NCBI GenBank assembly: GCA_017443465.1
Contig: JAFRXO010000032.1
Span: 186,001 to 250,000 of the forward strand
Reading direction: 5' to 3'
Source of the DNA: Bacteroidales bacterium
GTDB taxonomy: Bacteria > Bacteroidota > Bacteroidia > Bacteroidales > UBA932
DNA length: 64,000 nucleotides
In this document: positions 1-64,000 of the stretch, one piece after another
How positions within the stretch are numbered: the stretch's first letter is position 1
Layout of the letters: the number at the start of each line of letters is the position of its first letter
The notes under the pieces: model-generated
Told to the model about the DNA's origin: nothing
Databases searched by the model: none
What the model saw: the letters and a program-made list of their open reading frames with translations, nothing else
Made by a program: the position numbers and the translations under genes

Positions 1-1
1 C

Positions 2-619
2 CGTTGCGGTTCGGACTCTGACTGCAATCCTTCTTCCGCCGCCGGTATCCTTGGAACCATCATCGGTTTCAGTGGCATTCCGGATTACTGGAAACAGCCT
101 GTATATGAGGTTGAGGACAGGAATTTCGCTTACACTGACATCTCCATCAACAAGGCCACCCAATACTCTTTCAACCAGGCTCTCAAGGTCATCGAGAGAG
201 GCGGTGGAAAGATTGGAAATGACGAAGTGACCATTAAGCTGCAGAAGCCGGAGGCTGTACGTTTCGAGGAGAGTTTTGCCGGTCATTATCCGAAAAACAA
301 ATATTCTCTTGGAAGGTCTATCTATCTGGTTGACAAGATTGATTTCGAGGGTAACGGAATTGTGCTGAAGTACCATTTCTACAAAGACAGTAGCTACAAG
401 GAGCATGGATATGAAGCCCAGGTCGCAGTGTACCTTGACGGAGAACTCAGTGCCGTTGTCTCGAATCCTTCTTCCGGGATGGGGGCATCTGCGGAACTTT
501 ACTGGAAATATAATCTTAAAGAGGGACCGCATACTCTCACATTCAAATTCCTGAATAAGGAAGACGGAATCACCATTGTTCTCGACAACTATCTGGTTTA
601 CACTGGCAAAGAGAAATGA
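2..619 (+). CDS. ADP-ribosylglycohydrolase family protein, C-terminal part (5' end outside window)
   Basis: The frame is open from the first bases and ends in TGA at 617-619; the GTG at 227 is internal. The first residues carry a GSDSDCNPSS stretch, which matches the Asp-Ser-Asp metal-binding motif near the C-terminus of the ADP-ribosylglycohydrolase fold, where it helps hold the two Mg2+ ions. After about 75 residues of the end of that helical domain comes a beta-rich tail of about 130 residues that resembles a small carbohydrate-binding or jelly-roll domain. Bacteroidales secrete large versions of this family of unknown substrate. The stop overlaps the ATG of the GH31 gene (ATGA), so the two are translationally coupled. 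The substrate could be a nucleoside or glycoside rather than ADP-ribosyl protein. Confidence 0.75.
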   Translation, partial: RCGSDSDCNPSSAAGILGTIIGFSGIPDYWKQPVYEVEDRNFAYTDISINKATQYSFNQALKVIERGGGKIGNDEVTIKLQKPEAVRFEESFAGHYPKNKYSLGRSIYLVDKIDFEGNGIVLKYHFYKDSSYKEHGYEAQVAVYLDGELSAVVSNPSSGMGASAELYWKYNLKEGPHTLTFKFLNKEDGITIVLDNYLVYTGKEK

Positions 620-3021
620 AGAAGCTTTCGGTCCTGGTAGCGCTCCTTTCCTTGCTGTCCCTTTCCGCCATAGGCGCGGAAAGGGACTTCCCTATGCCTG
701 GCGGAAAGAAGGCAAGGATTACGGTCTGTTCTGACAATATATTCAGAGTGAGGATATTCCAGGGTAATTCTCCACAAGAGTCGCTCATGGAAAGGTATGG
801 AATAGTCAAGTCAGACTGGACGCCTGTAGAGGCAGCCATATCTTCAAAGGGAAAGGACATCTCCGTATCCTCCGGGAGTTATATCCTGAAACTGGACGGC
901 AGGACCGGGAGGTTCTCCGCCCAGAAAAAAGACGGCACTGCCGTCATCGGACGCCTGGAGTATCTTGACAGCCGCAGTCCCCTTGCCGGGCGTGTCGCCG
1001 AAGCGATAGACAAAGAATTCAGCGACCTCAAGGTCAGCCGCAACAGCGGGATCATAGGCGATACAGCCAAGCGCCCGGACTTATCATCATATGATGACGG
1101 AGAGAAACCCGAATCCGGTATGATTTCATTGTCCCTGCGTGACGGGGAAAGGCTCTACGGCGGAGGCAATACCAGCCGTTCCCACATCCAGCACCGGGGC
1201 GAGATCCTCCGCATGTGGTCGACTTACCAGCACACCGAGAGCCCTTATCCCTTCATGCTGAGCACCGGAGGATGGGCGATTTACAACAACACTACCACCG
1301 AGCAGTACTTCGATGCAGGGGCCGTCAGCCCTGACACTTTCAACATCTACGACACCTCCCCCGAGGCGGATTTCTATCTCATGTTCGGGGACGGGATCCC
1401 TTCACTTCTGGATGCTTACACACAGGTAACCGGACGCCCTTACCTGCTTCCCCGCTGGGCATATGGCTTGTGCTTCGGGCCTAATATGCTTGAAGACCAG
1501 TTCGATATCATGCGCGATGCGGCTATGATGCGGGAAATGGGTTTCCCATGCGACCTGTTGTGGCTGGAGCCCCAGTGGATGGCCAAGCGTTACGATTTCT
1601 CTACATCCAAGACATGGAATTTCGACAAGTTCTCTCCGGAACCATACTGGAGACATGACGATTTTCCCAAGTCTGAGCACAACCAGCTGTTCATAGGCAG
1701 GCTTCACGCAATGGGATATCATCTCGGGCTCTGGCTCTGTCTGGAATATGATCCTTCTATCACTGAGGAGGATGAGATTGCCCAGAGAGAAGGCAAGAAG
1801 ACCAGCGGAGAGGAGCATTGGTGTGACCACCTCCTCAATTTCGTCGATTTCGGAGTGGACGGATTCAAACTCGATCCTGCGCGTACGATCGATGAACATC
1901 CCGGGATGGTTTACCACAACAACCGGGGCGACCGCCAGATGCACAACCTGAACCAGATATTGATCCTCAAACAGGTGTCCTCGTCGTTCGCTGCCCACAC
2001 CGGGAGGCGTGCCTGGCTTCACTATTGCGGCGGCTGGTCCGGTTCCCAGCAATGGGGTGCAATGACAAGCGGGGACAACGGCGGAACGATCGTCGCCCTG
2101 TTCGATCAGCTGAATATGGGCCTCAGCGGCTTCATGAATTCTTCATGTGACGTGATGTCGGCCCCGAGGGATATCCAGGCCCAGAGCCTTCATTTCGGCA
2201 CATTCCTGCCATGGATGCAGATCAACAGCTGGTTCTCGATGCACCAGCCGTTCTATTTCGGAGGCGAAATGCGCAAGACATATCTCGGATATGCCAAGCT
2301 GCGTGCCGCCCTTCTGCCTTATATCTATTCCTCAGCTCTTGAGGGAGCCCAGACCGGGATGCCCATAGTACGCGCTCTCCCACTGGAATTTCCGGATGAC
2401 AGGAAGGCGGATGACCTTACTACCGAGTTCATGTTCGGCCCTTCCCTCCTGGTCGGGGCATTCAGCAATGAGATCTACCTTCCGGAAGGCCAGTGGACAG
2501 ACTATTGGACAGGAGAGAAACTCGAAGGCGGAAGGAAGATCACACATACTTATCCCTCGGACAAGGCCGGACTGCTCTTCGTCAGGGGCGGAGCGATACT
2601 TCCTCTCTGCCCTGCCGGACAGGACGGGTCCAGGGGCTCCGTAATCGATGGGAAACAGCCTCAGTCCAGCTATGACACGCTGACTGTCAAGATCTTCCCA
2701 TATGGAAAGAGTTCATATGTCCTAAGGGAAGACGACGGCACCTCATTCGCATATAAAGACGGTGCATGGGCTTCTACGACAATGCGATGCGAGCAGGTCG
2801 CCGGCAGGGTCTCATTCAGCGTCGATCCTGTCAAGGGAACATATGAAGGCATGAGCCCGGTCCGCACTTATCATCTAAGGTTCGCCGTTGACAGCAAGCC
2901 GTCGGCCGTGACAATTAACGGGTCCGGTACAGATGAATGGACATATGGCCAGGACGGATTCCTGAATGTGGATGTGCCTGATCATGATGTGACATCCTCC
3001 CTGGAGGTCAGACTGAATTAA
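616..3021 (+). CDS. Secreted glycoside hydrolase family 31 (alpha-glucosidase/alpha-xylosidase type)
   Basis: 801 residues with a cleavable signal peptide (basic MKK start, Leu-rich core, Ala-Ile-Gly-Ala before Glu22). It has the GH31 layout: an N-terminal beta domain, a TIM barrel, and C-terminal beta domains. In the barrel, the DGFKLDPA stretch places Asp420 as the likely nucleophile, and SGDN at 485-488 places Asp487 as the likely acid/base. MPIVRALPLEFPDD further on is a family hallmark. The nucleophile region lacks the usual WxDxNE form, so substrate specificity (alpha-glucoside, alpha-xyloside or other) cannot be read off. The start overlaps the upstream ADP-ribosylglycohydrolase stop and a transporter follows after 1 base, which suggests a small sugar-use operon. 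Confidence 0.9.
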   Translation: MKKLSVLVALLSLLSLSAIGAERDFPMPGGKKARITVCSDNIFRVRIFQGNSPQESLMERYGIVKSDWTPVEAAISSKGKDISVSSGSYILKLDGRTGRFSAQKKDGTAVIGRLEYLDSRSPLAGRVAEAIDKEFSDLKVSRNSGIIGDTAKRPDLSSYDDGEKPESGMISLSLRDGERLYGGGNTSRSHIQHRGEILRMWSTYQHTESPYPFMLSTGGWAIYNNTTTEQYFDAGAVSPDTFNIYDTSPEADFYLMFGDGIPSLLDAYTQVTGRPYLLPRWAYGLCFGPNMLEDQFDIMRDAAMMREMGFPCDLLWLEPQWMAKRYDFSTSKTWNFDKFSPEPYWRHDDFPKSEHNQLFIGRLHAMGYHLGLWLCLEYDPSITEEDEIAQREGKKTSGEEHWCDHLLNFVDFGVDGFKLDPARTIDEHPGMVYHNNRGDRQMHNLNQILILKQVSSSFAAHTGRRAWLHYCGGWSGSQQWGAMTSGDNGGTIVALFDQLNMGLSGFMNSSCDVMSAPRDIQAQSLHFGTFLPWMQINSWFSMHQPFYFGGEMRKTYLGYAKLRAALLPYIYSSALEGAQTGMPIVRALPLEFPDDRKADDLTTEFMFGPSLLVGAFSNEIYLPEGQWTDYWTGEKLEGGRKITHTYPSDKAGLLFVRGGAILPLCPAGQDGSRGSVIDGKQPQSSYDTLTVKIFPYGKSSYVLREDDGTSFAYKDGAWASTTMRCEQVAGRVSFSVDPVKGTYEGMSPVRTYHLRFAVDSKPSAVTINGSGTDEWTYGQDGFLNVDVPDHDVTSSLEVRLN

Positions 3022-3022
3022 T

Positions 3023-4360: not shown

Positions 4361-4364
4361 GGCT

Positions 4365-5690
4365 TTACGGCCTGCGCATATGTTTCATCTTCTCGCGGAG
4401 GCTTCCGTCCGCTACGCCCTTCATTATCTTGCGCGTAGATTCAAACTGCTTGAGAAGACGGTTGACCTCAGCTATTGTCGTGCCTGATCCGTCGGCGATG
4501 CGTTTGCGGCGGCTGCCGTTGATGAGTTCAGGCTTTTCCCTTTCAAGAGGAGTCATGGACATTATCATGGCTTCGATTCCCTTGAATGAGTCATTGTCTA
4601 TGTCGACGTTTTTGAGGGCTTTTCCCACTCCTGGGATCATCCCTGCGAGGTCCTTGATGTCGCCCATCTTCTTCACCTGCTGGATCTGCTTGTAGAAATC
4701 CATGAGAGTGAACTGGTTGCGGGCGAATTTCTTCTTCAGTTCACGGGCCTCTTTCTCATCGAACTGTTCCTGGGCCTTCTCGACGAGGGAGACGACGTCA
4801 CCCATTCCCAGGATCCTGTCGGCGATGCGGTCAGGATGGAAGACATCGAGGGCCTCGAGTTTTTCTCCGGAAGAAATGTACTTGATGGGCTTCCCGGTAA
4901 CTGCCTTGATGGAGAGGGCTGCACCACCTCTGGTGTCACCGTCCATCTTGGTGAGGACCACTCCGTCGAAATCCAGCCTGTCATTGAATGCCTTGGCGGT
5001 CTCGACTGCATCCTGTCCGGTCATTGCATCGACTACGAAAAGGGTCTCGGTCGGCTGGACGGCGGAGTGCATGGCTGAGATCTCGTCCATCAGCTCCTGA
5101 TCCACTGCAAGACGTCCTGCGGTGTCTATGATCACTACCGGGATGCCTTCGCTCTTAGCTTTTGCGATAGCGTTCCTGGCAATCCTGACATTGTCAGTTA
5201 CACCTTCTTCAGTGTAAACCGGAACACCGGCCTGGGATCCAAGTACCTGCAACTGCTCTATAGCGGCGGGCCTGAAAGTGTCGCAGGCAGCGAGAAGCAC
5301 CTGCATTCCCCTCTTGCTCTTTATGTTGGCTGCCAGCTTGGCGGCGAATGTGGTCTTTCCAGAACCGTTCAGACCTGCGACGAGAACTATCCCCGGCTTC
5401 CCCTTGATGTTGATGTCCGTAGAGGAACTGCCCATGAATTCGGCCAGTTTGTCGTGGACGATCTTGACCATCATCTGCTGCGGTTTCACCGCAGTGAGGA
5501 CATTCTGGCCCAAGGCTTCCTGCTTCACGTTGTCGCAGAACTCCTTGGCAACCTTGTAGCTTACGTCGGCATCCAGAAGGGCCCGGCGGATGTCCTTGAT
5601 GGTTTCGGCGACATTGATCTCGGTGATCCTGCCTTCGCCTTTAAGTATTTTAAACGACCTTTCCAGCCGTTCGGTCAGGTTCTCAAACAT
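4365..5690 (-). CDS. ffh: Signal recognition particle GTPase Ffh
   Basis: 441 residues with the full Ffh layout: an N helical bundle (1-100), a G domain with Walker A GLNGSGKTT at 106-114, DTAGRL and TKMDGDTRGG motifs, and a Met-rich M domain at the C-terminus with the MGDIKDLAGMIPG stretch. It binds SRP RNA and signal sequences and delivers nascent membrane and secreted proteins to FtsY. The start codon lies inside a CATATG. A Bacteroidota-type -7 box sits about 23 bases upstream, inside a strong inverted repeat. The gene stands alone between two convergent or independent units. Confidence 0.98.
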   Translation of the reverse strand: MFENLTERLERSFKILKGEGRITEINVAETIKDIRRALLDADVSYKVAKEFCDNVKQEALGQNVLTAVKPQQMMVKIVHDKLAEFMGSSSTDINIKGKPGIVLVAGLNGSGKTTFAAKLAANIKSKRGMQVLLAACDTFRPAAIEQLQVLGSQAGVPVYTEEGVTDNVRIARNAIAKAKSEGIPVVIIDTAGRLAVDQELMDEISAMHSAVQPTETLFVVDAMTGQDAVETAKAFNDRLDFDGVVLTKMDGDTRGGAALSIKAVTGKPIKYISSGEKLEALDVFHPDRIADRILGMGDVVSLVEKAQEQFDEKEARELKKKFARNQFTLMDFYKQIQQVKKMGDIKDLAGMIPGVGKALKNVDIDNDSFKGIEAMIMSMTPLEREKPELINGSRRKRIADGSGTTIAEVNRLLKQFESTRKIMKGVADGSLREKMKHMRRP

Positions 5691-5705
5691 ATGCTCCTAA
5701 AATAA

Positions 5706-5747
5706 TTGCCTGCAAAGTTAAGCATTTCTGCCGAACTTTGCAGGCAA
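5706..5747. terminator. 14-bp perfect inverted repeat: likely terminator of the DUF4876 operon overlapping the ffh promoter
   Basis: Arms 5706-5719 and 5734-5747 are exact reverse complements with a 14-base loop. It lies 36 bases past the stop of the DUF4876 gene and 16 bases upstream of the ffh start, both on the minus strand. Read on the minus strand it is a strong hairpin followed by TTATTTT, so a terminator is likely. The same arm also contains the ffh -7 box. Confidence 0.6.
5713..5720 (-). promoter_or_regulatory. Promoter -7 box for ffh
   Basis: On the minus strand this reads TAACTTTG, which fits the Bacteroidota -7 consensus TAnnTTTG. It lies 22 bases upstream of the ffh ATG and within one arm of the 14-bp inverted repeat. 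Confidence 0.5.
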
Positions 5748-5782
5748 CCTTGAAACTAAACTAAAACTAAAGAAATGGTCTT

Positions 5783-7225
5783 TTACTTAATGGATGGCTT
5801 TGAGTCTTTCTGGAAGTCGTTGGTGGAGTTGTTGGTATCGGCCAGCTTGCCTGCGGTGTTGATGCGGCGGACGCTCTTGCCAAGCCTGTCGGGATCGTCG
5901 TCAATCTTGCCGCAGCCGGTCCATCCTGCATCGACGCTGGGGTTGAATGCGAGAGTTCCGAGATACTGCTCCACGGCGCAGTTTACTCCGTCCAGTACCC
6001 ATGTGTTGGGCATAAGGAGGAAGCCGAGATTGGAGAAGTCCCTGGGCTTGCCGAGTGGCTCACCGTTCATGATGAAGGTCCTTTCGCCTTTCCATATGTA
6101 CTCATTGAGGATCGTGTCCAGATTGACTCCGTATGGGAGTGACAGGATGGCGTAGCTTTCATACCCGCGTCCATGGAGAATGGTTATCGTAAAGGATGAT
6201 TTGACCCATGCGACGAGATTGGGCACGTCGGCATTGTCGGTGTCTGGGTATATGTCGTTCTCATCGTAGAACTCGAAGTCTGCCTTGCTGAGGTTGACGG
6301 CACCTGGATTGTCTTTGGAATAATCCAGGGCTGCGATGGCGAGGACGATGGATTTGCCGGGTTCGATTGCGACATCGCGTCCCTTGCCGGGAACCATGTA
6401 GATTGAAGAGAGGGCGACGCTGTCAGGGGTCTCAGGATATTTCCAATATGCTCCTGTGGAAGCTACGTTTGAAGAAAGTGCGGAGAGACCGATTATGAGG
6501 CTGTCTGCATAGACTGTCTCGTCGCAGTTGTTGGTGATCTTGATGTATTGGTCGCCTGAGGTGCTCCCGTCTCCGTCAGGGATGGCCGTGCCTGTGAAGA
6601 AGACTTCTTCGATGACGAGCTGCCCTTTCTCGACGAGGTTCGCGCTCTGCTCTATGGTGAAGGTTTCGAGGGTCTGGTCGTCGGTTGTCAGGACGCTGAA
6701 GGTGGCGGTACGGGAAGAACCGCTTGCGTTGGTGTCGTAGGAAACCGTAATGGTGTTGCCTTCCTGTGCGGTTACGCGTGCCCAGTCGCTGTCGCAGGCA
6801 ATCTTGTAGGTGTATCCTTCAGGAGCCTCGAAAGTGACGGTCCCCGCTGTCCTGTTGTACTTCTTGATGGTTGCTTCGGGATCCGAAGGAACTGCAGGAC
6901 GTGCCTGGACGAGGGTTACATTTGCGATCTTGTCGTCGGCAGTGACGGTAATCTGTGCGCTTCTTCCGGCAGCATCGGTGTAGGGCTCGACCGTGACTGT
7001 GACAGTGCCGTTATCCTGGCCAGAGGTAGGAGTGACCGTGTACCAGGTCTGGTTGTCGGTGGTAATGGTCCATGCAGAGTTGGAATTTACGTTGAAAGTG
7101 TAGGTTCCGCCGGCAGCATCAGCCTCGAGGGAGGCGTTGCCGATCTCAAGTTTGGTTTCAGGGTCGTTGTTGCAGGCGGTAAGGGTAACTGCAGCAAGAG
7201 TCAAGAGATAAAAGATTTTTTTCAT
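5783..7225 (-). CDS. BACON-domain lipoprotein with DUF4876-like C-terminal domain
   Basis: 480 residues with a lipoprotein signal (Leu-Thr-Ala-Cys, Cys18). Two BACON-type beta-sandwich repeats follow (about 25-110 and 115-200; both have the S-W-I/W-A-R then GNTITV or GTVTVTV pattern). A C-terminal domain of about 280 residues resembles DUF4876: 'GQLVIEEVFFTG' start, 'QYIKITNN' strand, and an ending on a GCGKIDDDPDR stretch. The C-terminal domain is related in layout to lamin-tail-like surface domains. It is the last gene of the seven-gene operon, 30 bases after the barrel gene. It is probably exposed on the outer membrane as a partner of the TonB receptor. The family assignment is from memory; the ligand is unknown. 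Confidence 0.75.
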   Translation of the reverse strand: MKKIFYLLTLAAVTLTACNNDPETKLEIGNASLEADAAGGTYTFNVNSNSAWTITTDNQTWYTVTPTSGQDNGTVTVTVEPYTDAAGRSAQITVTADDKIANVTLVQARPAVPSDPEATIKKYNRTAGTVTFEAPEGYTYKIACDSDWARVTAQEGNTITVSYDTNASGSSRTATFSVLTTDDQTLETFTIEQSANLVEKGQLVIEEVFFTGTAIPDGDGSTSGDQYIKITNNCDETVYADSLIIGLSALSSNVASTGAYWKYPETPDSVALSSIYMVPGKGRDVAIEPGKSIVLAIAALDYSKDNPGAVNLSKADFEFYDENDIYPDTDNADVPNLVAWVKSSFTITILHGRGYESYAILSLPYGVNLDTILNEYIWKGERTFIMNGEPLGKPRDFSNLGFLLMPNTWVLDGVNCAVEQYLGTLAFNPSVDAGWTGCGKIDDDPDRLGKSVRRINTAGKLADTNNSTNDFQKDSKPSIK

Positions 7226-7255
7226 GGTTTTTATGTATTTAGTTGATCATATGAT

Positions 7256-8743
7256 TCAGAATTCAAGTCCCAGGGCTGAACACAGGCAGTCCGTCCCGTT
7301 TCCGGAACCGAAGAAAAGCCTGCGGTAAGACATGGAGAGGTAACATATGCCGTATTTGATCCTGGCGTTCAGGCCGGCGCTCAGGCAGTTGTCTGTGAAA
7401 GCGGCATGTATTCTGCCGTAGTGCGCCGCGATGAGCTCCTGGGTGAAGTCGGACGGAATGTCCAGGCTGCCACCGAGATTTACCTTGTAGAGGGCTTCCG
7501 CTCCGATGTAATATGCCAGTTTCCCGATGGAGGAGCGGTATGACGTCCCTGCTCCGGCTTCGGCATATGCGAAGTCCATCTTGCGCTCCGGGTAGACATA
7601 TCCGGAACTGAAGCTGTAAGCTGATGCCGATGGATTCAGTGCAAGCGTGCCTTTTTCACGGGGGAACTCTATTACGGATTCAATGGATCCGCTGAGGATG
7701 TCGGCCGTGTACATTTCTACATCCAGCAAGCTTCCGAAATCGCTTCCGCTCTTGCTGTCCAGGAGCGGCTCGATACCCTGGCGGTGTTCGTAGCCGGCTT
7801 TCAGGAGGGTGTTGTGACGGACCCGTCCCTTGGTGTTCCTCAGGGAGGTGAAGATGCCGGCGTTCAGCGTATTCAGTTCGCACAGGACAGCATTGTTGAG
7901 GATGGGAAGGCGCCTTTTAAGTGACAGGGAGGCAAGCGATAGGGCGCTGCTCCATCCGTCAGCTCTATCTGCAGGACGCATCGAGAGTGCCGCAGACCAT
8001 CCGAAGCCTTTGTAATAGGTCCTGTAGAAGTTTTCACTTCCTTCGAACCTGGGATAATGTGCGCCGAGACCAAGGAACTGGAATTCGTTGGTGTTGGCTC
8101 CCTTCTTGTTGTAGAAAGTGAGCGCCTGGTTCTGGTAGTATTTGCGGAAACTTGCAGAAAGGTCCAGCAGATAGGACTTTACTGGATAGCCGGCAGAGGC
8201 GCTTACCTTCAGGTCAGAAGTGATGTTGCGGGGGCGCGGGTCGAAGTCCCTGTACTCATGCAGGGCCCTGTACTGCGCTCCTCCTCCCAGGACGAATTTC
8301 CCGGCATGCGTCGCGTAATAGCCGTTGAAAGAGTACTGCTCGCTCTGGAGGTCGCATTCAAGCGAATCAGCCATTACATATGGATATAGTATGCTGAAGT
8401 CGGAGGTGGAATTCCATATGACGTCCCTCTTTACTCCCCTGCTGTACCTGGCGCCTCCCCTTGCTGCGGAACCGTTCCCGAAGCGTACATATGTGCCGTA
8501 GTTGAAGAAGCCTTCAAGCTTCCCGTTCCCTTCCTGGGGCAGGAATGCTGAATCCTCACGCCTGAGGTCCACTCCCACCGATGCGTCATTCCAGGAAGTT
8601 GCGAAGCGGCTCAGGAATGCGGTCGGAGACACCTGGTCTTCAGCGTCATGGACCAGGGTGTTGAATGGAAGCCAGTGCTGGGCGGAGGCTGCAAGACCGT
8701 TCAGCATGAAGACTATGGCGAGTATGTGACGGAATCCTTTCAT
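7256..8743 (-). CDS. Outer-membrane beta-barrel protein (DUF6850-like)
   Basis: 495 residues with a signal peptide ending in SAQ at about 20-22. The rest is alternating hydrophobic/aromatic strands rich in Tyr, Ser and Gly, ending in LGLEF with a C-terminal Phe as expected for a Bam-assembled barrel. Size and setting match the DUF6850 barrel proteins that accompany DUF4876 lipoproteins in Bacteroidota (from memory). Its start overlaps the stop of the small lipoprotein gene (ATGA). A transport or anchoring role with the neighbouring TonB receptor is inferred from the operon; no catalytic motif is visible. Confidence 0.7.
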   Translation of the reverse strand: MKGFRHILAIVFMLNGLAASAQHWLPFNTLVHDAEDQVSPTAFLSRFATSWNDASVGVDLRREDSAFLPQEGNGKLEGFFNYGTYVRFGNGSAARGGARYSRGVKRDVIWNSTSDFSILYPYVMADSLECDLQSEQYSFNGYYATHAGKFVLGGGAQYRALHEYRDFDPRPRNITSDLKVSASAGYPVKSYLLDLSASFRKYYQNQALTFYNKKGANTNEFQFLGLGAHYPRFEGSENFYRTYYKGFGWSAALSMRPADRADGWSSALSLASLSLKRRLPILNNAVLCELNTLNAGIFTSLRNTKGRVRHNTLLKAGYEHRQGIEPLLDSKSGSDFGSLLDVEMYTADILSGSIESVIEFPREKGTLALNPSASAYSFSSGYVYPERKMDFAYAEAGAGTSYRSSIGKLAYYIGAEALYKVNLGGSLDIPSDFTQELIAAHYGRIHAAFTDNCLSAGLNARIKYGICYLSMSYRRLFFGSGNGTDCLCSALGLEF

Positions 8744-9144
8744 TCAAGCACAATCAGTTCCAGTCTGACGTCCGCGCTGTCTTCCAGAAGCATTACGGCT
8801 TTGTCAGGGGAATTGTAAGCCACGAAACGCACTTTCTTTTCTACCAGGCCGCTTTCTCCCACAATACGGGCGACGCCATCGAATGCAATGGTATATACTC
8901 CTTTCCGTACCCTGAGCGGGCCGCCATGGTTGTTTACGAATACAGGGAAATCGTATTTCTGCATGGTGTTAACATTCCTCAGGAAATTGCCCGGGAGGCT
9001 GTTGTCGACAGTCATCTGCATGATGTCGGTCCCGTCAGGCATGACGGCGGTGAGGGAAAGAGAACAGAACACGTCCGTTTCCACCTGTTTAACGCAGGAA
9101 GAAAGCAGCATCGCGGACAACAATATGCAGAGGACCTTTCTCAT
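8740..9144 (-). CDS. Small lipoprotein of the TonB/ABC operon, unknown function
   Basis: 134 residues with a lipobox LSSC (Cys17). The mature part is beta-rich without a motif I recognise. It overlaps both neighbours by 4 bases (ATGA), so it is coupled between the TonB receptor and the barrel gene. By position it is probably a periplasmic or surface accessory of the receptor. Confidence 0.65.
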   Translation of the reverse strand: MRKVLCILLSAMLLSSCVKQVETDVFCSLSLTAVMPDGTDIMQMTVDNSLPGNFLRNVNTMQKYDFPVFVNNHGGPLRVRKGVYTIAFDGVARIVGESGLVEKKVRFVAYNSPDKAVMLLEDSADVRLELIVLE

Positions 9145-13054: not shown

Positions 13055-13055
13055 A

Positions 13056-30054: not shown

Positions 30055-30105
30055 CAGTCCTCTATACAAAAGAGGTCCTGATAACGAATAACAAACAAGA
30101 AACAT

Positions 30106-30807
30106 ATGGCAAACGAAAAAGAAAGAAAAGCCCAGGAAGCTAGAGACGCTGAAAGGCAGGAGAAAGTTGCAGAGCAGGTTTCCAAGACCGACGAATTCCT
30201 GAAAGAGCATTCCAAACTCATATATGGCTGCCTTATAGCGCTGTTGCTCATCGGACTGGGCATCGTAGCATGGCAGAAATTCATCCTCCAGCCCAAGAAG
30301 GCGGAAGGAATGGCCCAGATGTATCCTGCAGAGGCTTCTTACAGGGCTCAGGAGTATGACCTCGCCCTCAACGGTGACGGGAATGTCCTTGGCTTCAAGC
30401 AGATCATTGACGAGTACGGCAGCAAGGCCGGAGAGAGCGTGTATTTCTACGCCGGAATGTGCAACCTCGAGCTCGGAAACTATGACGAGGCCATCGCCAT
30501 GTTCAAGAAATACAAAGGAAAGGAGTCCATCCTTGCTGCACGCAGTCTCGGTTGCATCGGCGACGCCTATGTAGGACTTGAGAAATACAGCGAAGCCCTT
30601 TCATGGTATGACAAAGCCGCTGCCAGGGCCAACAATCCTTTCGCGGCTTCCTATCTGCTCAAGGCAGGCGTCGTCTGCGAGGAGATGGGTGACAATGCAA
30701 AGGCTCTCGATTATTACAAGAAGATCAAGGACCAGTATCCTCAGTCTATCGAAGGCTACGATATCGACAAGTACATCTCCAGGATCGAGACCCTGATGTC
30801 CAAATAA
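30106..30807 (+). CDS. Membrane-anchored tetratricopeptide repeat protein
   Basis: 233 residues: a charged cytoplasmic start, one membrane span (about 39-60), then three or four TPR-like helices (such as GNYDEAIAMFKKYKG and EKYSEALSWYDKAA). This layout resembles YfgM/ancillary SecYEG chaperones. It would act in the periplasm on secretion or envelope assembly. YebC follows 13 bases downstream and they are probably co-transcribed. Start in a CATATG. Confidence 0.82.
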   Translation: MANEKERKAQEARDAERQEKVAEQVSKTDEFLKEHSKLIYGCLIALLLIGLGIVAWQKFILQPKKAEGMAQMYPAEASYRAQEYDLALNGDGNVLGFKQIIDEYGSKAGESVYFYAGMCNLELGNYDEAIAMFKKYKGKESILAARSLGCIGDAYVGLEKYSEALSWYDKAAARANNPFAASYLLKAGVVCEEMGDNAKALDYYKKIKDQYPQSIEGYDIDKYISRIETLMSK

Positions 30808-32545: not shown

Positions 32546-32756
32546 GCCTCCCCTGCCACGGGGTCGGACGAGCCGATTTGGAGCAGTCAGGTTCCTGGCA
32601 GGACGAGAGAGCCGGTGTCCCGCGACGGCGTTTGTCTGAGGGGCGTTATACGCCGACAGGCGGATAAAAACCCCGAGTTAGCCGTCGAACCGGCGCATTG
32701 AAGTCATGCCCTGACTGCGACATATGAGGCGAAGCCAATCCCCTGGCAGGGAGGGC
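32546..32756. ncRNA. Structured RNA candidate of about 210 bases (6S RNA-like rod)
   Basis: This stretch lies between two convergent stops and has no ORF. It can fold into a long rod: a closing stem of 13 bases (32546-32558 with 32744-32756, one mismatch, one wobble), GGGG/CCCC next, then GCAGTCAGG (32583-32591) with CCTGACTGC (32710-32718), GCCGGT (32611-32616) with ACCGGC (32689-32694), GACGGC (32624-32629) with GCCGTC (32681-32686), and a tip hairpin around 32641-32660. Small side hairpins flank it. Length and the single-rod form fit 6S RNA. No RNase P, tmRNA or riboswitch box was recognised, no promoter was found, and the strand is not settled. Confidence 0.5.
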
Positions 32757-42965: not shown

Positions 42966-45900
42966 ATGGTAAGGATTGAATTCCAATCGCTTCTTGACAA
43001 CAGGATCCTGGTGCTTGACGGCGCCATGGGGACCATGATTCAGCGCTATTGTCCTGGATGTGAGAACTCTGAACTGCTAAATATAGAACATCCGGAGATA
43101 ATTTCCCGGATTCATTCCGAGTACATTGAAGCCGGAGCAGATATTATCGAATGCAATTCCTTCAGCGCCAGCAGGATCTCACAGGCGGCACATGGACTTG
43201 GCGAAAAAGCCGGATCCATGGCTTTCGAAGCGGCGAGGATAGCACGCGAAGCGGCCGATAAGGCCGGACGCAGGGTTTTCGTCGCCGGAAGCATGGGCCC
43301 GACCAACAAGTCCCTTACCCTTGCACAGGATGCCGACAATCCGTCTTTCCGCGAGTATTCGTTTGACGAAATGGCCGATTCATATGCAGGACAGATCCGG
43401 GCGCTGATAGACGGTGGAGTGGATATGATCGTGGTCGAGACCTGTTTCGATGCGCTGAACTGCAAGGCCGCCCTGTATGCCGCATCACTTCTCCGTGAAG
43501 AATACCTGAGAAAAGGGAAATACCCGGAAAGATTTGGGAATGAGCCTATTCCTGCAATAGTCTCCGTCTCAGTGTCAGACCGGAGCGGAAGGACACTTAC
43601 CGGACAGACCCTGGAGGCATTCTACACCTCCGTAAGGCACTATCCCCTGCTGGCTTTCGGACTCAACTGCTCTCTCGGAGCAGCGGCGATGTCTTCGTTG
43701 ATTGAAGATGTCTCGCGTTTCAGCGATTTGCCTCTCATATGTTTCCCGAATGCCGGCATGCCCAATGAGATGGGAGCATATGACCAGACTCCGGATCAGT
43801 TTGCCTCCGAGGTGCGTGGCCTGGCACAGCGGGGACTGCTGAATATAGCAGGCGGCTGCTGCGGCACGACTCCTTCGCATATCGCGAAGCTGGCAGAGGC
43901 GATCAAGGATCTCCCTCAGAGGAACTCATTCGGTTCACCTTCTACCGGAGAATTGGTCGCAAGCGGGCTGGAAACTGTACATATAGACCTGGAAACCAGG
44001 AACTTCACCAATATCGGAGAACGTACGAACGTAGCTGGTTCGCGTAAGTTCGCAAAGCTGATTTCCGCAGGTGATTATGAAACTGCGCTGAAGGTAGCCG
44101 CTGACCAGATCGAAAATGGAGCCCTGGTTATTGACATCAATATGGATGATGCAATGCTGGAACCCGGGAAGGAGATGGAAACATTCGTACGATATGTCCA
44201 GAATGATCCTTCCGTGGCAAAGGCTGCTCTGATGATAGATTCTTCCCGCTGGGATGCCATTCTGGCCGGCCTGAAGAATTCCCAGGGAAGATGCATAGTT
44301 AATTCCATCAGCCTGAAAGACGGGGAATCCGAGTTCCTGAAGAAAGCGGCTGAAATCCACAGGCTCGGGGCTGCGATGGTGGTTATGGCCTTCGATGAGA
44401 ATGGACAGGCAACGACATTCTCCCGAAAAACTGAAATATGTGCCCGTGCATATGGATTGCTTACCGGTATAGGCATAGCGCCTCAGGATATCATATTCGA
44501 CTGCAATGTGTTGTCTGTGGGCACCGGAATAGCAGAACATGCCGCATATGCAGTGGATTTCATTGAGTCGGTCCGCTGGATAAAGTCAAATCTCCCCGGA
44601 GCTAAGACCTCTGGAGGTGTTTCCAACCTCTCATTCGCATTCAGGGGTAACAATAAGGTCCGGCAGGCAATGCATTCCGCATTCCTTTACCATGCCATCG
44701 AAGCCGGACTGGACATGGCGATAGTCAATCCAGGTATGCTCCAGGTCTATGATGAGATTGAACCGTCCCTGCTGGCCTGCGTCGAGGATGTTATCCTGAA
44801 CAAGGATCCGGGGGCTACTGACCGGCTTATAGCCAAGGCCCAGGAGATTTCTGCCGTTGCAGATGCACCGTCTTCCCCGGATAACGCGCAGGGACTTCCC
44901 CGCCCTGGGCATATGGATTCTGACCAGAGCCTCCGGGATGCACTTGTAAGAGGTGATATGTCATCTGTGGCGGAAGATGCTCTCAGGAGCCTTGAAATCC
45001 ACGGCAGGGCCGTAGATGTGATTGAGGGGCCGCTGTTGGACGGCATGCGACAGGTGGGTGAGCTGTTCGGAAACGGAAAGATGTTTCTGCCTCAGGTGGT
45101 GAAGTCTGCCAAGGTAATGCGTACCGCCGTTGAAGCCCTGGAACCATATCTCAGGAATGAAGGAACTGAAGGGAATGGCTCCTCCGTGAGACCCAAGGTG
45201 ATCCTTGCGACCGTAAAGGGCGACATCCATGACATAGGCAAGAATATAACAGGTATCGTACTGGGCTGCAATGGTTTTGATGTGATCGATCTCGGGGTGA
45301 TGGTGGAGAAGGAAACGATCCTGGACACTGCCGTTGCCCAAGGTGCCGACATTATCGCTGTCAGCGGGCTTATCACTCCTTCCCTTTACCAGATGAAAGA
45401 ACTTTGCCGCGAGATGCGTTCCAGAGGAATGGACACACCCCTGTTCGTAGGCGGGGCTACGACTTCGGCTCTTCACACCGCCGTCAAGCTGGCTCCGTTA
45501 TATGATCACGTTTTTTACGGGGCTGATGCATCCCAGGGAGCCGTTAATGCCAAGCGTTGTATCATTGACCGGGAAGCATTTGAGGCGGAAGAGCATGCCA
45601 GGCAGGCTCAGTTAAGGGAACTCTATTTCCGCGGGGAAAATACCCGTTTTGCTGCCTCGGATGGGCCACAGAAACCTGCGCGGGATGTAGCCAGGGAGGA
45701 TTTCCTCCGGAGAGAAGAATGCACACTGGAAAACATCCCGACCCGGGAGATTCCTGTCAATGAACTGATTCCCTATTTTGACTGGAAGATGTTCCTTCTG
45801 ACCTGGGGACTGAAAGACAGTTCATCTCCTGTAGCCCGCAAGACTGTCTCTGACGGGCGTGATGCCCTTTCACGTCTTGCCGGAGAGCTCTCGGTTCGCA

Positions 45901-46517
45901 TTTCAGCCCGTTTCAGCGATGCATGTTCTGATGGTAGCGGAATTGTCTTTGACGGAATCAGGCTCCCGATGCTTCGTCAGGAAGAAGACAAGTTCATGTC
46001 CCTGTGTGATTTCGTGCCTCAGGAAGACATGGGCTTCTCCTCCCCATTCGGCATGTTCGCCATAAGCGTGAAACAATCTTCCCCACATCCGGAAGGCTGC
46101 ACATGTCCCAGCTGCCGCCCGGCTGACTACGAATCCATGATGGACCGCTCGGTCAGGGTCTGCCTGGCCGAAGCAGCTTCATCTTGGCTGGACAAGTGGA
46201 TAAGCGACCGCCTGGACCGCAGCGACTTAAAGATATGCAAGCCTGCAGCCGGATATGCCTCATGCCCGGACCATACCCTTAAACGGGACATACTCTCCCT
46301 GCTTCCGCAGGGTGAAAAGCTTGGCATATCCTTTACTGAAAGTTATGCAATGATTCCGGATGCTTCCATATGCGGTTTCATCTTCATTCACAGGAATGCA
46401 TCCTATCCGGAAATCAGACATATAAGCAATTCACAATATGACAGTTACTCGAAGGAACGCGGCTTCTCATCCCAAGATGCCGTACGGTTCCTCGGGAACC
46501 TTGTCCAAAACCGATGA
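42966..46517 (+). CDS. metH: Cobalamin-dependent methionine synthase MetH
   Basis: 1183 residues; the ATG at 42966 is chosen rather than the GTG at 42957. Domains in order: homocysteine-binding (LDGAMGTMIQ; zinc Cys in GGCCGTTP near 300), methyltetrahydrofolate (FTNIGERTNVAGS, about 340), cobalamin (GDIHDIGKNI, cobalt-ligating His755) and the reactivation domain with AdoMet (TREIPVNELIPYFDW, from about 925). It methylates homocysteine using 5-methyl-THF. A -7 box is 22 bases upstream; an aldo/keto reductase and metF follow. No cobalamin riboswitch is seen in the short leader. Confidence 0.97.
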   Translation: MVRIEFQSLLDNRILVLDGAMGTMIQRYCPGCENSELLNIEHPEIISRIHSEYIEAGADIIECNSFSASRISQAAHGLGEKAGSMAFEAARIAREAADKAGRRVFVAGSMGPTNKSLTLAQDADNPSFREYSFDEMADSYAGQIRALIDGGVDMIVVETCFDALNCKAALYAASLLREEYLRKGKYPERFGNEPIPAIVSVSVSDRSGRTLTGQTLEAFYTSVRHYPLLAFGLNCSLGAAAMSSLIEDVSRFSDLPLICFPNAGMPNEMGAYDQTPDQFASEVRGLAQRGLLNIAGGCCGTTPSHIAKLAEAIKDLPQRNSFGSPSTGELVASGLETVHIDLETRNFTNIGERTNVAGSRKFAKLISAGDYETALKVAADQIENGALVIDINMDDAMLEPGKEMETFVRYVQNDPSVAKAALMIDSSRWDAILAGLKNSQGRCIVNSISLKDGESEFLKKAAEIHRLGAAMVVMAFDENGQATTFSRKTEICARAYGLLTGIGIAPQDIIFDCNVLSVGTGIAEHAAYAVDFIESVRWIKSNLPGAKTSGGVSNLSFAFRGNNKVRQAMHSAFLYHAIEAGLDMAIVNPGMLQVYDEIEPSLLACVEDVILNKDPGATDRLIAKAQEISAVADAPSSPDNAQGLPRPGHMDSDQSLRDALVRGDMSSVAEDALRSLEIHGRAVDVIEGPLLDGMRQVGELFGNGKMFLPQVVKSAKVMRTAVEALEPYLRNEGTEGNGSSVRPKVILATVKGDIHDIGKNITGIVLGCNGFDVIDLGVMVEKETILDTAVAQGADIIAVSGLITPSLYQMKELCREMRSRGMDTPLFVGGATTSALHTAVKLAPLYDHVFYGADASQGAVNAKRCIIDREAFEAEEHARQAQLRELYFRGENTRFAASDGPQKPARDVAREDFLRREECTLENIPTREIPVNELIPYFDWKMFLLTWGLKDSSSPVARKTVSDGRDALSRLAGELSVRISARFSDACSDGSGIVFDGIRLPMLRQEEDKFMSLCDFVPQEDMGFSSPFGMFAISVKQSSPHPEGCTCPSCRPADYESMMDRSVRVCLAEAASSWLDKWISDRLDRSDLKICKPAAGYASCPDHTLKRDILSLLPQGEKLGISFTESYAMIPDASICGFIFIHRNASYPEIRHISNSQYDSYSKERGFSSQDAVRFLGNLVQNR

Positions 46518-49670: not shown

Positions 49671-49695
49671 TAAAGACAAAATATATAAGAACCAT

Positions 49696-51450: not shown

Positions 51451-52762
51451 AGTATATCAGAGAATCTACACGAAACTGGAAGCCATTACCAAGGCAACCG
51501 TTTCCGTCAGGGCGACCGGAGCTTCGAACGACGAACTTGCGGTAGTTGCCGGACGTCTCGCACAGGTAGTGCGGACAAAAGGTGACATAGTCACTTTGCA
51601 GGTTTTTTCCGGAACGGAAGGTATTCCTACCGATGCCGAGGTCATTTTCATGGGAGAGCCGCCCGTAATCAAGGTGGGAGACCAGCTTTCGGGCCGTTTC
51701 TTCAATGCATATGGGAAACCTATCGACGGCGGGCCGGAGCCCGAGGGTGAGGCACGTGAGATCGGAGGCCCTTCCGTCAACCCGTACAAGAGGCGTCAGC
51801 CGTCCCAGCTCATTCCGACCGGTATTGCAGGCATAGACCTCAATAATACAATTGTTTCCGGTCAGAAGATCCCGTTCTTCGCCGACCCGGACCAGCCTTA
51901 TAACCAGGTTATCGCCGACGTTGCCATGAGGGCAGACGTTGACAAGATCATCCTCGGAGGAATGGGACTGTCAAATGACGACTATCTCTTCTTCCGTAAG
52001 TCCTTCGAGTCTGCCGGAGCATTGGACAAGATCATATGCTTCGTCAATACTACCGAGGACCCGACTGTCGAGCGTCTCCTTATTCCGGACACAGCACTTA
52101 CCGCTGCTGAATATTTCGCAGTTGACAAGAATGAAAAGGTACTGGTCCTCCTGACCGACATGACCCTCTATTGTGATGCCCTGTCGATAGTCAGCAACCG
52201 CATGGACCAGATCCCGTCAAAGGATTCCATGCCCGGCTCTCTCTATTCTGATCTTGCGAAGATCTACGAAAAGGCCGTGCAGTTGCCATCGGGAGGTTCT
52301 ATAACCATTATCGCCGTCACTACCCTCAATGACGGGGACATCACTCACGCTATCCCGGACAACACTGGCTATATTACTGAAGGCCAGTTGTTCCTGAGGG
52401 CTGATGCAGATTCCGGAAAGGTAATCATCGATCCGTTCCGTTCGCTCTCCAGGTTGAAACAGAACGTCCAGAACAAGAAGACCCGTGAGGACCATAGCCA
52501 GATAATGAATGCCGGAGTGCGCCTGTACGCGGATGCCCAGAATGCCAAGACAAAGCTTGAGAACGGCTTTGACCTTTCGGATTACGACCACCGGTGCCTC
52601 GCATATGCCAAGGAATATGCGACGAAACTTCTGGCGATTGACGTCAACATCTCTATAGATGAGATGCTTGACACCGCCTGGTCTTTGTTCGCAAAGTATT
52701 TCTCGAAGGCGGAAACCGGTATCAAGCAAGCGCTTATTGATAAATACTGGAAAGGAAACTAG
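51440..52762 (+). CDS. ntpB: V-type ATPase subunit B
   Basis: 440 residues, similar to A but without a working P-loop. PSGGSITIIAVTTLNDGD and the acidic N-terminal barrel are typical. It pairs with A in the head. Overlaps A by 11 bases; ntpD follows by 2. Confidence 0.97.
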   Translation: MANRVYQRIYTKLEAITKATVSVRATGASNDELAVVAGRLAQVVRTKGDIVTLQVFSGTEGIPTDAEVIFMGEPPVIKVGDQLSGRFFNAYGKPIDGGPEPEGEAREIGGPSVNPYKRRQPSQLIPTGIAGIDLNNTIVSGQKIPFFADPDQPYNQVIADVAMRADVDKIILGGMGLSNDDYLFFRKSFESAGALDKIICFVNTTEDPTVERLLIPDTALTAAEYFAVDKNEKVLVLLTDMTLYCDALSIVSNRMDQIPSKDSMPGSLYSDLAKIYEKAVQLPSGGSITIIAVTTLNDGDITHAIPDNTGYITEGQLFLRADADSGKVIIDPFRSLSRLKQNVQNKKTREDHSQIMNAGVRLYADAQNAKTKLENGFDLSDYDHRCLAYAKEYATKLLAIDVNISIDEMLDTAWSLFAKYFSKAETGIKQALIDKYWKGN

Positions 52763-52764
52763 GG

Positions 52765-53373
52765 ATGCCTATCAAGTTCCAATATAACAAGACTTCGCTG
52801 AACGAGATCACCAAGCAGCTCAAAGTCCGTCTCAACGCTCTCCCAACCCTCAAGAACAAGGAGAGCGCCCTGAGGATGGAAGTGGGCCGTGCTAAGGAGC
52901 GTGCAGAGAAGCTGCTCTCCGAACTGGATGCGGCTATGGAAAAATATGATTCCATCTCCGCACTCTGGAACGAGTTCGATCCGGGACTGGTAAGGATTAC
53001 CGGCGTTGACATGGTGACTGTGAAAGTCGCCGGAGTCAAGACCCCGGAACTGCGGGAAGTTTTCTTTGAACTCCAGCCGTTCAATGCCTTCAGCAAACCT
53101 GCCTGGTATGCAGATGGAGTGGAAATCCTCAAAGACCTGTCCCGTCTTGGAATCGAATCGGAAGTAAGCCGCGAGAAAGCGCGTGTCCTGGATTGGCAGC
53201 GTAAGAAGACTACCCAGAAGGTGAACCTTTACGAAAAGGTCCAGATCCCTGGTTACCAGGAAGCTATCAGGAAGATCAAGAGATTCATGGAGGATGAGGA
53301 GAACCTGTCCAAGGCCTCATCCAAGATAGTCAAGAACCGTCATGCAGAGGAGGAGGCTCTGGAAGCGATATGA
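52765..53373 (+). CDS. ntpD: V-type ATPase subunit D
   Basis: 202 residues, mostly two long helices; NEITKQLKVRLNALPTLKNK near the N-terminus is the family mark. It is the central rotor shaft. Overlaps ntpI by 4 bases. Confidence 0.95.
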   Translation: MPIKFQYNKTSLNEITKQLKVRLNALPTLKNKESALRMEVGRAKERAEKLLSELDAAMEKYDSISALWNEFDPGLVRITGVDMVTVKVAGVKTPELREVFFELQPFNAFSKPAWYADGVEILKDLSRLGIESEVSREKARVLDWQRKKTTQKVNLYEKVQIPGYQEAIRKIKRFMEDEENLSKASSKIVKNRHAEEEALEAI

Positions 53374-57363: not shown

Positions 57364-57367
57364 TCAT

Positions 57368-58438
57368 ATGTTTTCTTTCAGGACGACTCCGCTTGAGGAC
57401 CAGGTAGACAAGGCTCTCATGAGCGGTCGTGTTGGCTGTTTCTGTACCCAGAACTGCTGGGATACAGGACGCAGCCGCTATATGTACGATTTGTTCCGGG
57501 AGCGCAGGAATCTCGCAAGGGTGTTCTATCCGCGTGAGGCTGAGCTGACCCCCGGAACGAACCATATAGATTTCACGCGCGAAGACCTGGAGCCGCTCAG
57601 CGCCATAGTCGTCGAGATACAGGATGTAGGAGCCAGGTATTTCAACTACACCAAGGATGTCATTTCCCTGATGGACATCCTGGCTGACATGGGAGAATAC
57701 GCGCCAGCACTTTACATAGTTGACCATATCAATCCGGCTGGCCGTGTTGTGGAAGGTACCATGCCTGAAGGAATGCATGAGATGCACATAGCTAAAGTAG
57801 CTCACAGACACGGCCTTACTCTTGGAGAGTTATGCAATCTTTACTACTCCGGGATCCAGGCGAAGTTCCCTCTGCATGTGATCTCCTACAGGGCGTCTGA
57901 CTCCAATTCCCAGCTGATGCCGTGGACTATTGCACCCGCTTCCGACATTCCCGGACTCTTTACGTGTATGATGTATTCCGGAGGCGGCCTGTGGAACAAT
58001 ACAACGATTACTCCCGGAATCGGGACATCCAGGCCATATGAATACATCGGGGCACCTTTCATAAAGAACAGCACACTCGAGACTCCCCCCGTCCCCCAGG
58101 GAGCGATGATGCGTCCATGTACGTTTACCCCCTCTGCCGGGCGTTACAGTGACCAGCGATGCTACGGATGGCAGATAATGCTTTCACCCGGAGCCGAGTA
58201 TCACTCACTCCTCCACACCATCCAGCTTATGCGCTGGTTCATGGGCAGGTACTCCCAGTTCGAGCTCCTTCCTGAATTCTGGGCCAAGCTGGCCGATCCG
58301 GTGATTGCCGAGTATCTTTCCGGCGGAGACCTCAGCCTCATGGATGTACGCGAGCATGTGAAAATCTCCGAACAGAAATGGATCAGGAAGGCAAAACGCT
58401 TCTGCCTGTACGACGATCAGCCCTTCAGGATGAAATAA
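57368..58438 (+). CDS. DUF1343 family protein (NamZ-like), cytoplasmic form
   Basis: 356 residues with the DUF1343 pattern: EIQDVGARYFNYT, HINPAGRVVEG, GIGTSRPYEYIGAPF. Related NamZ proteins are exo-beta-N-acetylmuramidases of wall recycling. No signal peptide is present, and the family's usual EHG motif after the FxP stretch is replaced by EAE. It follows glmM by 4 bases, consistent with amino-sugar recycling inside the cell. Start in a CATATG. Confidence 0.8.
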   Translation: MFSFRTTPLEDQVDKALMSGRVGCFCTQNCWDTGRSRYMYDLFRERRNLARVFYPREAELTPGTNHIDFTREDLEPLSAIVVEIQDVGARYFNYTKDVISLMDILADMGEYAPALYIVDHINPAGRVVEGTMPEGMHEMHIAKVAHRHGLTLGELCNLYYSGIQAKFPLHVISYRASDSNSQLMPWTIAPASDIPGLFTCMMYSGGGLWNNTTITPGIGTSRPYEYIGAPFIKNSTLETPPVPQGAMMRPCTFTPSAGRYSDQRCYGWQIMLSPGAEYHSLLHTIQLMRWFMGRYSQFELLPEFWAKLADPVIAEYLSGGDLSLMDVREHVKISEQKWIRKAKRFCLYDDQPFRMK

Positions 58439-58449
58439 TTGGATTCTCT

Positions 58450-58481: not shown

Positions 58482-58519
58482 TCGGCTCAAAAAGCAGAAT
58501 TAAATAATTTTATAGAATC

Positions 58520-58774: not shown

Positions 58775-58794
58775 TCGGACCTCAGTTTTCTATC

Positions 58795-58821
58795 AAACCG
58801 CCTGGTGGGGCGGTTTTTTTT
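58795..58821 (+). terminator. Rho-independent terminator after L31
   Basis: AAACCGCC (58795-58802) and GGCGGTTT (58809-58816) with a 6-base loop and a run of eight T residues. Confidence 0.8.
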
Positions 58822-58832
58822 GTATATTGTCG

Positions 58833-58840
58833 TATATTTG
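58833..58840 (+). promoter_or_regulatory. Promoter -7 box for the small membrane protein and DPP IV genes
   Basis: TATATTTG, fitting TAnnTTTG, 16 bases before the first ATG at 58857. It follows the L31 terminator. Confidence 0.55.
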
Positions 58841-58856
58841 TTCTTAACAAAAACGT

Positions 58857-59270: not shown

Positions 59271-59275
59271 TTCCT

Positions 59276-61213: not shown

Positions 61214-61222
61214 ATCCTGGCG

Positions 61223-61945: not shown

Positions 61946-61960
61946 ATTCTGAAGTTTTGA

Positions 61961-63684: not shown

Positions 63685-63688
63685 TCTG

Positions 63689-64000
63689 CTATTTCTTTGG
63701 AGGGTCGATTTTGGCGTAATACCTCAGGTCACCGAAGAAGGAGGCCATGAACATGATGAAAAGGACTGCAGAGATAACAAGTCCGACAAGGTCAAGGGCG
63801 GTCAGGAGAAAGGTGTCAGAGCCGAGAGCCACCTGTAATGAGAATTCCCTAAGCGGCCTGATCAGGATCAATAAAGTATTTACGATAATGACGATGATCC
63901 GGAACTCCGTAGGGCCTACCCTGGCATATGTGAGCTTGAATTCGGATTTCAGGTGGGCGTTGACCGAGACATTTACAGTCATCATCAGGTACGCCGCGAA
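63689..64000 (-). CDS. CDP-alcohol phosphatidyltransferase family protein, C-terminal part (5' end outside window)
   Basis: The frame is open to the right edge (about 103 residues seen). Two or three spans and the ending RYYAKIDPP fit the C-terminus of CDP-alcohol phosphatidyltransferase-like proteins in Bacteroidales (from memory), which make phospholipids. The motif with catalytic Asp residues would lie outside the window. It precedes the acyltransferase by 4 bases. Confidence 0.6.
   Translation of the reverse strand, partial: FAAYLMMTVNVSVNAHLKSEFKLTYARVGPTEFRIIVIIVNTLLILIRPLREFSLQVALGSDTFLLTALDLVGLVISAVLFIMFMASFFGDLRYYAKIDPPKK

Follow-up and report, generated by a model that had tools for sequence, protein, structure and literature searches.

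In a Bacteroidales clade that includes at least two species, the hexanucleotide CATATG is a word maintained throughout the genome. Our analysis concerns a 64-kb stretch of DNA from one of these species (G000:C76:186001-250000, hereafter the window), over whose entire length (1..64000) CATATG sites are dispersed. An earlier note on this stretch had put their number at about 110, where base composition predicts about 15, and exact counting bears this out, with 113 copies (1.77 per kb) against 14.3 expected. The force that maintains the word sees the hexamer alone, opposes several kinds of base change, and hardly depends on gene, position, or neighboring sites. As its cause we tentatively favor a clade-specific, hexamer-specific drive acting at the level of DNA, most likely biased repair or conversion.

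The source genome (G000) spans 2.65 Mb in 81 contigs and is 96% complete, with an estimated contamination of 2.9%. Its proteins match those of uncultured rumen and gut Bacteroidales, and its nearest relatives are metagenome-assembled genomes (MAGs) of Bacteroidia/Bacteroidales. The nearest relative found, here called the sister, is RUG14879 (listed as G240 and G444, with identical counts, and as locus L001). It comprises 2.1 Mb, is 79% complete, and encodes a MetH protein with 83% amino-acid identity to that of the source genome. Short contigs are present as N letters, and their zero counts of CATATG are therefore an artefact.

Abundance of CATATG and filling of accessible positions

In the window, CATATG is the most over-represented hexamer, lying 14 standard scores (z) beyond a second-order Markov expectation of 31.9 copies. 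Because that expectation already exceeds the one from base composition, the excess is partly explained by trinucleotide use. The sites fall in every reading frame (16 as CAT-ATG, 55 as xCA-TAT-Gxx, and 26 as xxC-ATA-TGx), with another 10 across called start codons and 6 outside called genes, as had been claimed for coding, intergenic, and start-proximal DNA alike. The source genome as a whole holds 4230 copies, compared with 79 of the reversed word GTATAC. In a 390-kb sample, 683 copies were found against 180.3 under the second-order Markov model, and CATATG is again the top hexamer (z of 37 when sites are counted once, or 53 when both strands are counted).

Coding sequence was examined in 504 open reading frames called by a simple longest-frame rule in 32 readable stretches of the source genome, totaling 641 kb. 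Codons were shuffled in three ways: within each gene, pooled, and pooled with the bases at codon junctions kept. CATATG leads all hexamers by codon shuffle as well (z of 52.5). The excess persists after within-gene shuffling, with 998 observed sites against 218 (an observed-to-expected ratio of 4.58; in the sister 4.76, or 538 against 113). Even the junction-preserving shuffle, which itself keeps part of the CATATG signal, yields only 320 ± 16 sites, a ratio of 3.1 in both genomes. Thus, the suggestion that amino-acid need alone cannot account for the word is upheld by the shuffles, and also by the context controls described below.

A more direct measure is the fraction of accessible positions, meaning sites where CATATG is possible without changing the protein, that actually carry the word. 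This fraction is 79% in the source sample (998 of 1268) and 73% in the sister (538 of 740). The word is not at background level away from the window, since 62 to 100% of accessible positions are filled in 30 of the 32 stretches, the exceptions being L170 (0 of 10) and L179 (2 of 5). Each coding context shows the same preference. Histidine before methionine is encoded by CAT in 136 of 143 cases in the source genome and 67 of 78 in the sister, whereas elsewhere in the source genome CAT is chosen in 1761 of 3523. The context nCN-TAY-G reads CA-TAT-G in 621 of 773 instances (sister, 338 of 450), compared with 136 of 1013 when the next base is not G. Likewise, xxN-ATH-TG reads C-ATA-TG in 241 of 352 instances (sister, 133 of 212), compared with 1334 of 9377 in the control.

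Start codons show the word too: CAT directly precedes the called start ATG in 96 of 501 source genes and 41 of 303 sister genes, against 6 of 425 and 16 of 975 in other genomes. The set of 425 starts was drawn from other genomes of the genus, includes four small source or sister loci (L233, L234, L241, and L242), and may overlap the set of 975; these flaws do not favor our interpretation. Odds ratios derived by hand for the three coding contexts and then for start codons are 19, 26, 13, and 15 in the source genome and 8, 20, 10, and 10 in the sister. In gaps between called genes, 16 copies occur in 18.3 kb where 4.2 are expected. Their density does not differ among divergent, convergent, and co-directional gaps (0.92, 0.79, and 0.88 per kb).

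The motif ends sharply at six bases, with flanking information of at most 0.042 bits per position. A longer motif around CATATG was rejected, its flanks being without signal. Within the hexamer, each of the palindrome's three symmetric positions is maintained. At nCN-TAT-G in the source genome, the third base of the first codon is A in 621 cases, C in 35, T in 19, and G in 14. Variants with one mismatch are not depleted as a class; relative to codon shuffling of the source and sister genomes they occur at 1.15 to 1.53 times expectation when the outer position is changed, 0.48 to 0.74 times for the second position, and 0.87 to 1.24 times for the third.

Gaps between sites are near Poisson (mean 533, coefficient of variation 0.99) apart from 11 head-to-tail pairs at a spacing of 6, and the gap analysis revealed no spacing rule. 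Whether the next site is close by or as much as 1.2 kb away, the filled fraction stays between 0.77 and 0.86. A requirement for a site every so often is disfavored by this result, because the expected leveling-off with neighboring sites is not seen.

Conservation in the sister and distribution among relatives

About 113 kb of the source genome could be aligned with RUG14879, and conservation was assessed in 94 kb of blocks with less than 92% identity (83.6% identity overall). Among the 434 hexamers seen at least 80 times, CATATG is the best kept, with a Jaccard index of 0.697 against a median of 0.256, and the words ranking next overlap it. Silent bases inside the word are likewise kept far better than ordinary ones. 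The fourfold-degenerate base of nCA codons is kept in 75 of 84 cases inside CATATG, compared with 366 of 1004 elsewhere and 16 of 37 before tyrosine without the word. Similarly, the third base of TAT is kept in 84 of 87 cases inside the word and 270 of 394 elsewhere, and that of ATA in 22 of 26 and 209 of 416. Aligned DNA outside genes is itself conserved, at 86% identity compared with 53% at fourfold-degenerate sites.

At 147 accessible positions shared by the two species, where the amino acids are conserved, the word is present in both at 109, in the source genome only at 12, in the sister only at 9, and in neither at 17. A small two-species model of such changes is fitted best by gain-biased change, with a selection-like process 2 to 6 log-likelihood units behind and a lowered rate of loss alone performing worst.

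Some alignments are far closer than the general divergence, which is mostly 75 to 92% identity: 65 of 445 comparison windows are at least 96% identical, in sharply bounded tracts. Examples at 96 to 100% identity pair L214 with L088, L198 with L095, L150 with positions 5708-9311 of the window, L200 with L098, and L001 with the window near 40161, in species whose sequences otherwise differ by about 10 to 25%. Such tracts could reflect recent interspecies recombination or chimeric assembly; judged from the alignments, recombination between the two species appears to have occurred. CATATG density is 2.15 per kb in the high-identity windows (16 kb) and 1.68 per kb elsewhere, a difference too small to weigh.

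The genus was represented by 400 genomes, including the source genome, drawn from a larger group. Only the source genome and RUG14879 reach 1.60 CATATG per kb (3353 copies in the 2.1 Mb of the latter, against 39 of GTATAC), and the next genome, G227, has 0.72 per kb. Counts per genome range from 12 (G164, 1.6 Mb) to 4230. For other samples from the genus, observed-to-expected ratios by codon shuffle scatter from 0 to 5, in small samples that nearly all expect fewer than 10 sites. Pooling 79 loci of relatives (L002-L080, 1.39 Mb) gives CA-TAT-G in 107 of 1019 cases, against 340 of 2023 in the control context, and so reveals no bias. In the small samples from genomes of intermediate density (G227, G131, G249, G178, and others), the context bias is weak or absent, and G227, G131, and G249 may carry a weak form of it.

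A palindrome scan of 90 sequences, four of them from the source genome or the sister, detected no similar excess in the 86 other Bacteroidales loci, which are single loci of 9 to 24 kb in which weaker cases could be missed; the best palindrome among them is ATATAT in L029 (13 copies against 3.3, z of 5.3). We conclude from these comparisons that a small clade, with at least two species, carries the trait and that the genus as a whole does not. No report of CATATG over-representation in Bacteroidota was found in the open-licence literature, which does not show its absence in print.

Viral loci were scored for filling as well. Among the 80 loci scored, from a scan matching at least 120 stretches, the 20 best filled are all AT-rich (28 to 42% GC) and are uninformative for that reason. 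A simple repeat scan of the source and sister samples found no CRISPR-like (clustered regularly interspaced short palindromic repeat) arrays, so these samples offer no spacer route to phages.

Known systems and competing explanations

HIP1 (GCGATCGC), the highly iterated palindrome (HIP) of cyanobacteria, raised a question that is still open: what makes certain bacterial genomes carry a single palindrome in thousands of copies. One published idea ties such palindromes to methyltransferases (PMC4390886). The earlier note had likened CATATG to HIP1, and the likeness holds: CATATG is a palindrome present at 1600 copies per Mb, dispersed, found in all frames, conserved, and lineage-restricted. Like HIP1 and the alternate HIPs it is the top over-represented word of its genome; at 4230 copies in 2.65 Mb and 3353 in 2.1 Mb, its density lies within their range of 1000 to 2000 per Mb, and its one-mismatch forms, like theirs, deviate most at the outer positions (PMC4390886). 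Several features differ. Alternate HIPs are described there as at least 75% GC, with TCGATCGA at 50% as the named exception, whereas CATATG has two G or C bases in six (33%). HIP1 may be extended in some genomes, whereas CATATG is sharply 6 bp. The leveling-off with neighboring sites that the published HIP model expects is not seen here, and a cognate methyltransferase was not found in the source or sister genome with the six Pfam families searched. The host, moreover, belongs to another phylum. CATATG resembles cyanobacterial HIPs in its working, but because GC-richness and a cognate methyltransferase are lacking by these measures and the phylum differs, we leave it outside the class as described.

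The suggestion that CATATG could be a methylation site fared less well. Whole genomes were searched with Pfam profiles for PF01555 (16 genomes) and for PF02086, PF02384, PF00145, PF07669, and PF05063 (MT-A70; 12 genomes each), with E-value cut-offs of up to 0.001 for PF01555 and PF02086 and up to 0.1 for PF02384, PF00145, and MT-A70. These five families, PF07669 aside, have no match in the source genome (96% complete) or the sister (79% complete), in both of which short contigs are N; the weight of the MT-A70 negative is limited, since this profile matched in none of 14 control genomes. In the source genome, PF07669 weakly matches PrmC and, with a score under the curated cut-off, a TrmN-like RNA methyltransferase; its matches in the sister are visibly the counterparts of these two proteins. 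Thus, an orphan DNA methyltransferase was not found in either genome with six Pfam families, although further families exist. NPPY-type motifs occur in five sampled source proteins (the TrmN-like protein and, by Pfam, Cons_hypoth95, a GH31 enzyme, an aminotransferase, and DUF4857) and in one from the sister. Among the 12 genomes compared, the majority have one or more DNA methyltransferases. Lack of methyltransferases as the cause of CATATG abundance was rejected as not distinctive, since G012 and G008 are likewise without a convincing match.

Other repeated words offer partial parallels. The DNA uptake sequences of Neisseria and Pasteurellaceae (DUS, or uptake signal sequences, USS) also consist of a short word repeated many times, whose spread has been argued to result from drive and whose mismatched forms are in excess; their cores are 9 to 10 bp with weaker flanking consensus (PMC1939737), whereas CATATG is a 6-bp palindrome with the flanks given above. 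A repeat of the repetitive extragenic palindromic (REP) kind in Caldithrix abyssi is likewise an over-represented palindrome, but it is 18 nt long, has 38 exact copies, and is mostly extragenic (PMC5317091). REP elements and bacterial interspersed mosaic elements (BIMEs) are extragenic and built of a longer unit, whereas 97 of the 113 window sites lie inside called genes and have no conserved flank. Nor is CATATG avoided, as a restriction-modification target would be, since it is enriched and no methyltransferase was matched. By the features examined, CATATG is not a DUS, a REP element, or an avoided restriction site.

In E. coli, very short patch repair by Vsr, whose substrate is a T:G mismatch within a methylated site, reportedly alters oligonucleotide abundance. 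The parallel with CATATG is that repair can bring a short word into excess without a function for each site. Here, however, several base changes are opposed at all symmetric positions, and neither the source genome nor the sister has a match to Vsr, which is present in 6 of the 12 genomes compared. Vsr-type repair was rejected on these two grounds, the opposed changes not being of one mismatch type, and T:G repair alone does not fit because the third-base changes at nCN-TAT-G are of several types.

In the mechanism we prefer, a factor acting in trans would recognize six base pairs of duplex DNA, no more and no fewer, and would tilt the retention of alleles by odds of about 8 to 26 (scaled strength about 2 to 3.3). 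The most likely route would be biased resolution of mismatches or heteroduplexes during repair or recombination, a gene-conversion-like drive. Where one strand or allele carries CATATG and the other does not, CATATG would win. Because such a drive needs no function for each site, it fits the near-uniformity over genes, the effect at start codons, and the spacing. The factor would be neither a methyltransferase of the six searched families nor Vsr. A fuller version, to which we are slightly less inclined, is that a sequence-specific drive independent of methyltransferases actively writes this hexamer, and keeps it, at every place the proteome permits. Behind it would stand a repair or recombination factor of a new kind that reads palindromes, and CATATG would be the first HIP outside cyanobacteria known to us.

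Several observations count against this drive. Filling drops to 15 of 28 positions where no other site lies within 1.2 kb, filling is nearly uniform but slightly over-dispersed over genes (chi-square of 361 for 312 genes with at least two positions), the strength differs among contexts across the odds of 8 to 26, and the excess outside called genes is weaker than within them, at only 3.8-fold. In nCN-TAY-G, words with one and two mismatches number 82 and 70 in the source genome, against 383 and 494 in the control, and 69 and 43 in the sister, against 219 and 331; this relative excess of one-mismatch words (1.5-fold and 2.4-fold, respectively) hints at graded affinity. In the two-species model, gain bias leads selection-like change only by the small margin given above, whose size varies with the transition rate assumed. 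All three models expect too many positions without the word in either species (10 to 19 against 5 seen). No candidate for the trans-acting factor was found, and the mechanism is reached by elimination. Moreover, a nearly identical pattern would arise from weak selection acting with equal strength across the genome.

Such selection is the nearest competitor: in our judgment the data agree best with mismatches or heteroduplexes being resolved in a biased way, and additive selection for a binding protein follows closely. Here a DNA-binding protein of the clade, or a nucleoid protein as the earlier note had also suggested, would recognize CATATG, and each additional site would bring a tiny benefit (scaled strength about 3). 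This is a possibility we hold in lower regard than the drive but above all others. It shares the drive's footprint and is consistent with slow turnover of sites between the species, with the one-mismatch excess just described as graded affinity would produce it, and with a weak pull on amino-acid sequence in the source genome (HM 1.53-fold and IC 1.51-fold, against MH 1.01-fold and LC 1.07-fold). Against it stand the lack of a spacing rule, clear interference, marked gene preference, or difference among gap orientations, the similarity of the odds at start codons to those in gene interiors, and the failure to identify a candidate protein.

The remaining explanations carry less weight. Palindromic hexamers are typical methyltransferase sites, and the density of CATATG is that of a HIP. 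A cyanobacterial mechanism, in which mismatch repair guided by the methyl marks of an orphan methyltransferase on CATATG would fix the word, nonetheless seems doubtful given the profile searches and the low GC content of the word, as described alternate HIPs are mostly GC-rich. In addition, that model (Elhai 2015, PMC4390886) has extra sites cease to matter at about one per 1000 nt, whereas nearby sites do not lower filling here. A watermark of self DNA, spread by uptake bias in the manner of DUS and USS, would accord with the tracts of at least 96% identity as signs of recent exchange, but it is unlikely because described uptake words are longer and flanked (PMC1939737) and because one site per fragment should suffice, yet sites do not interfere. 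Passive protection, in which a bound protein or chemistry lowers mutation of CATATG without any bias toward gain, would give high conservation; it is very improbable, since it predicts 2.3 to 3.6 one-sided positions of 92 where 13 are seen and has the worst likelihood of the three models in all three settings. Least credible of all, and in our view negligible, is an origin in codon usage, amino-acid need, base composition, or a contaminated or chimeric assembly. CAT, ATA, TAT, and ATG are common, and the second-order Markov expectation is twice that from base composition. Amino-acid and codon explanations were nevertheless rejected by the three kinds of shuffle and the context controls; the start-codon controls and the recurrence of the pattern in the sister, a separate record, also argue against a compositional or assembly origin.

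CATATG thus presents a separate case of an iterated palindrome in another phylum, with 79% filling in the sample, no DNA methyltransferase found, and a sister with the same word. Because hundreds of sampled genomes of the same genus lack the word, its cause is testable, as the factor should be common to these two genomes and absent from the others. Some silent sites in this clade owe their state to a force that acts on DNA and has nothing to do with translation. This bears on ratios of nonsynonymous to synonymous substitution (dN/dS), on codon-usage studies, and perhaps on the binning of MAGs.

Individual sites and neighboring features

Two genes of the window illustrate complete filling. The methionine synthase gene metH (42966..46517, + strand), which was used to find the sister, carries CATATG at all seven of its accessible positions. 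A glycoside-hydrolase-like gene (616..3021, + strand), which matches alpha-xylosidase and alpha-glucosidase models below their cut-offs, does so at six of six (1088, 1460, 2699, 2714, 2840, and 2942), all in the xCA-TAT-Gxx frame. Sites across called start codons, with CAT directly before ATG, include 5688..5693 (- strand), 30103..30108 (+ strand), and 57365..57370 (+ strand), and an example outside called genes is 32721..32726.

The contig without any filled position, L170 (G000:C8, 6506 bases), carries ordinary genes such as those for a rhomboid protein and a metallophosphatase. Given the estimated contamination of the assembly, it may be foreign or a binning contaminant, and the degree of CATATG filling could be used to detect contamination in these MAGs. 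The reversed word GTATAC, with its 79 copies genome-wide, has none in the window, and codon shuffling indicates 11 observed against 108 in the source genome and 4 against 66 in the sister. Several other TATA and GTAT words are also low, and many genomes of the genus are likewise poor in GTATAC, whose scarcity is probably a separate avoidance. Two other features of the window are ordinary: a gene at 28875-29972 matches the RecF/RecN/SMC family, and at 49077-53373 the gene matches to DUF2764 and to ATP synthase subunit D point to an operon for a V/A-type ATPase.

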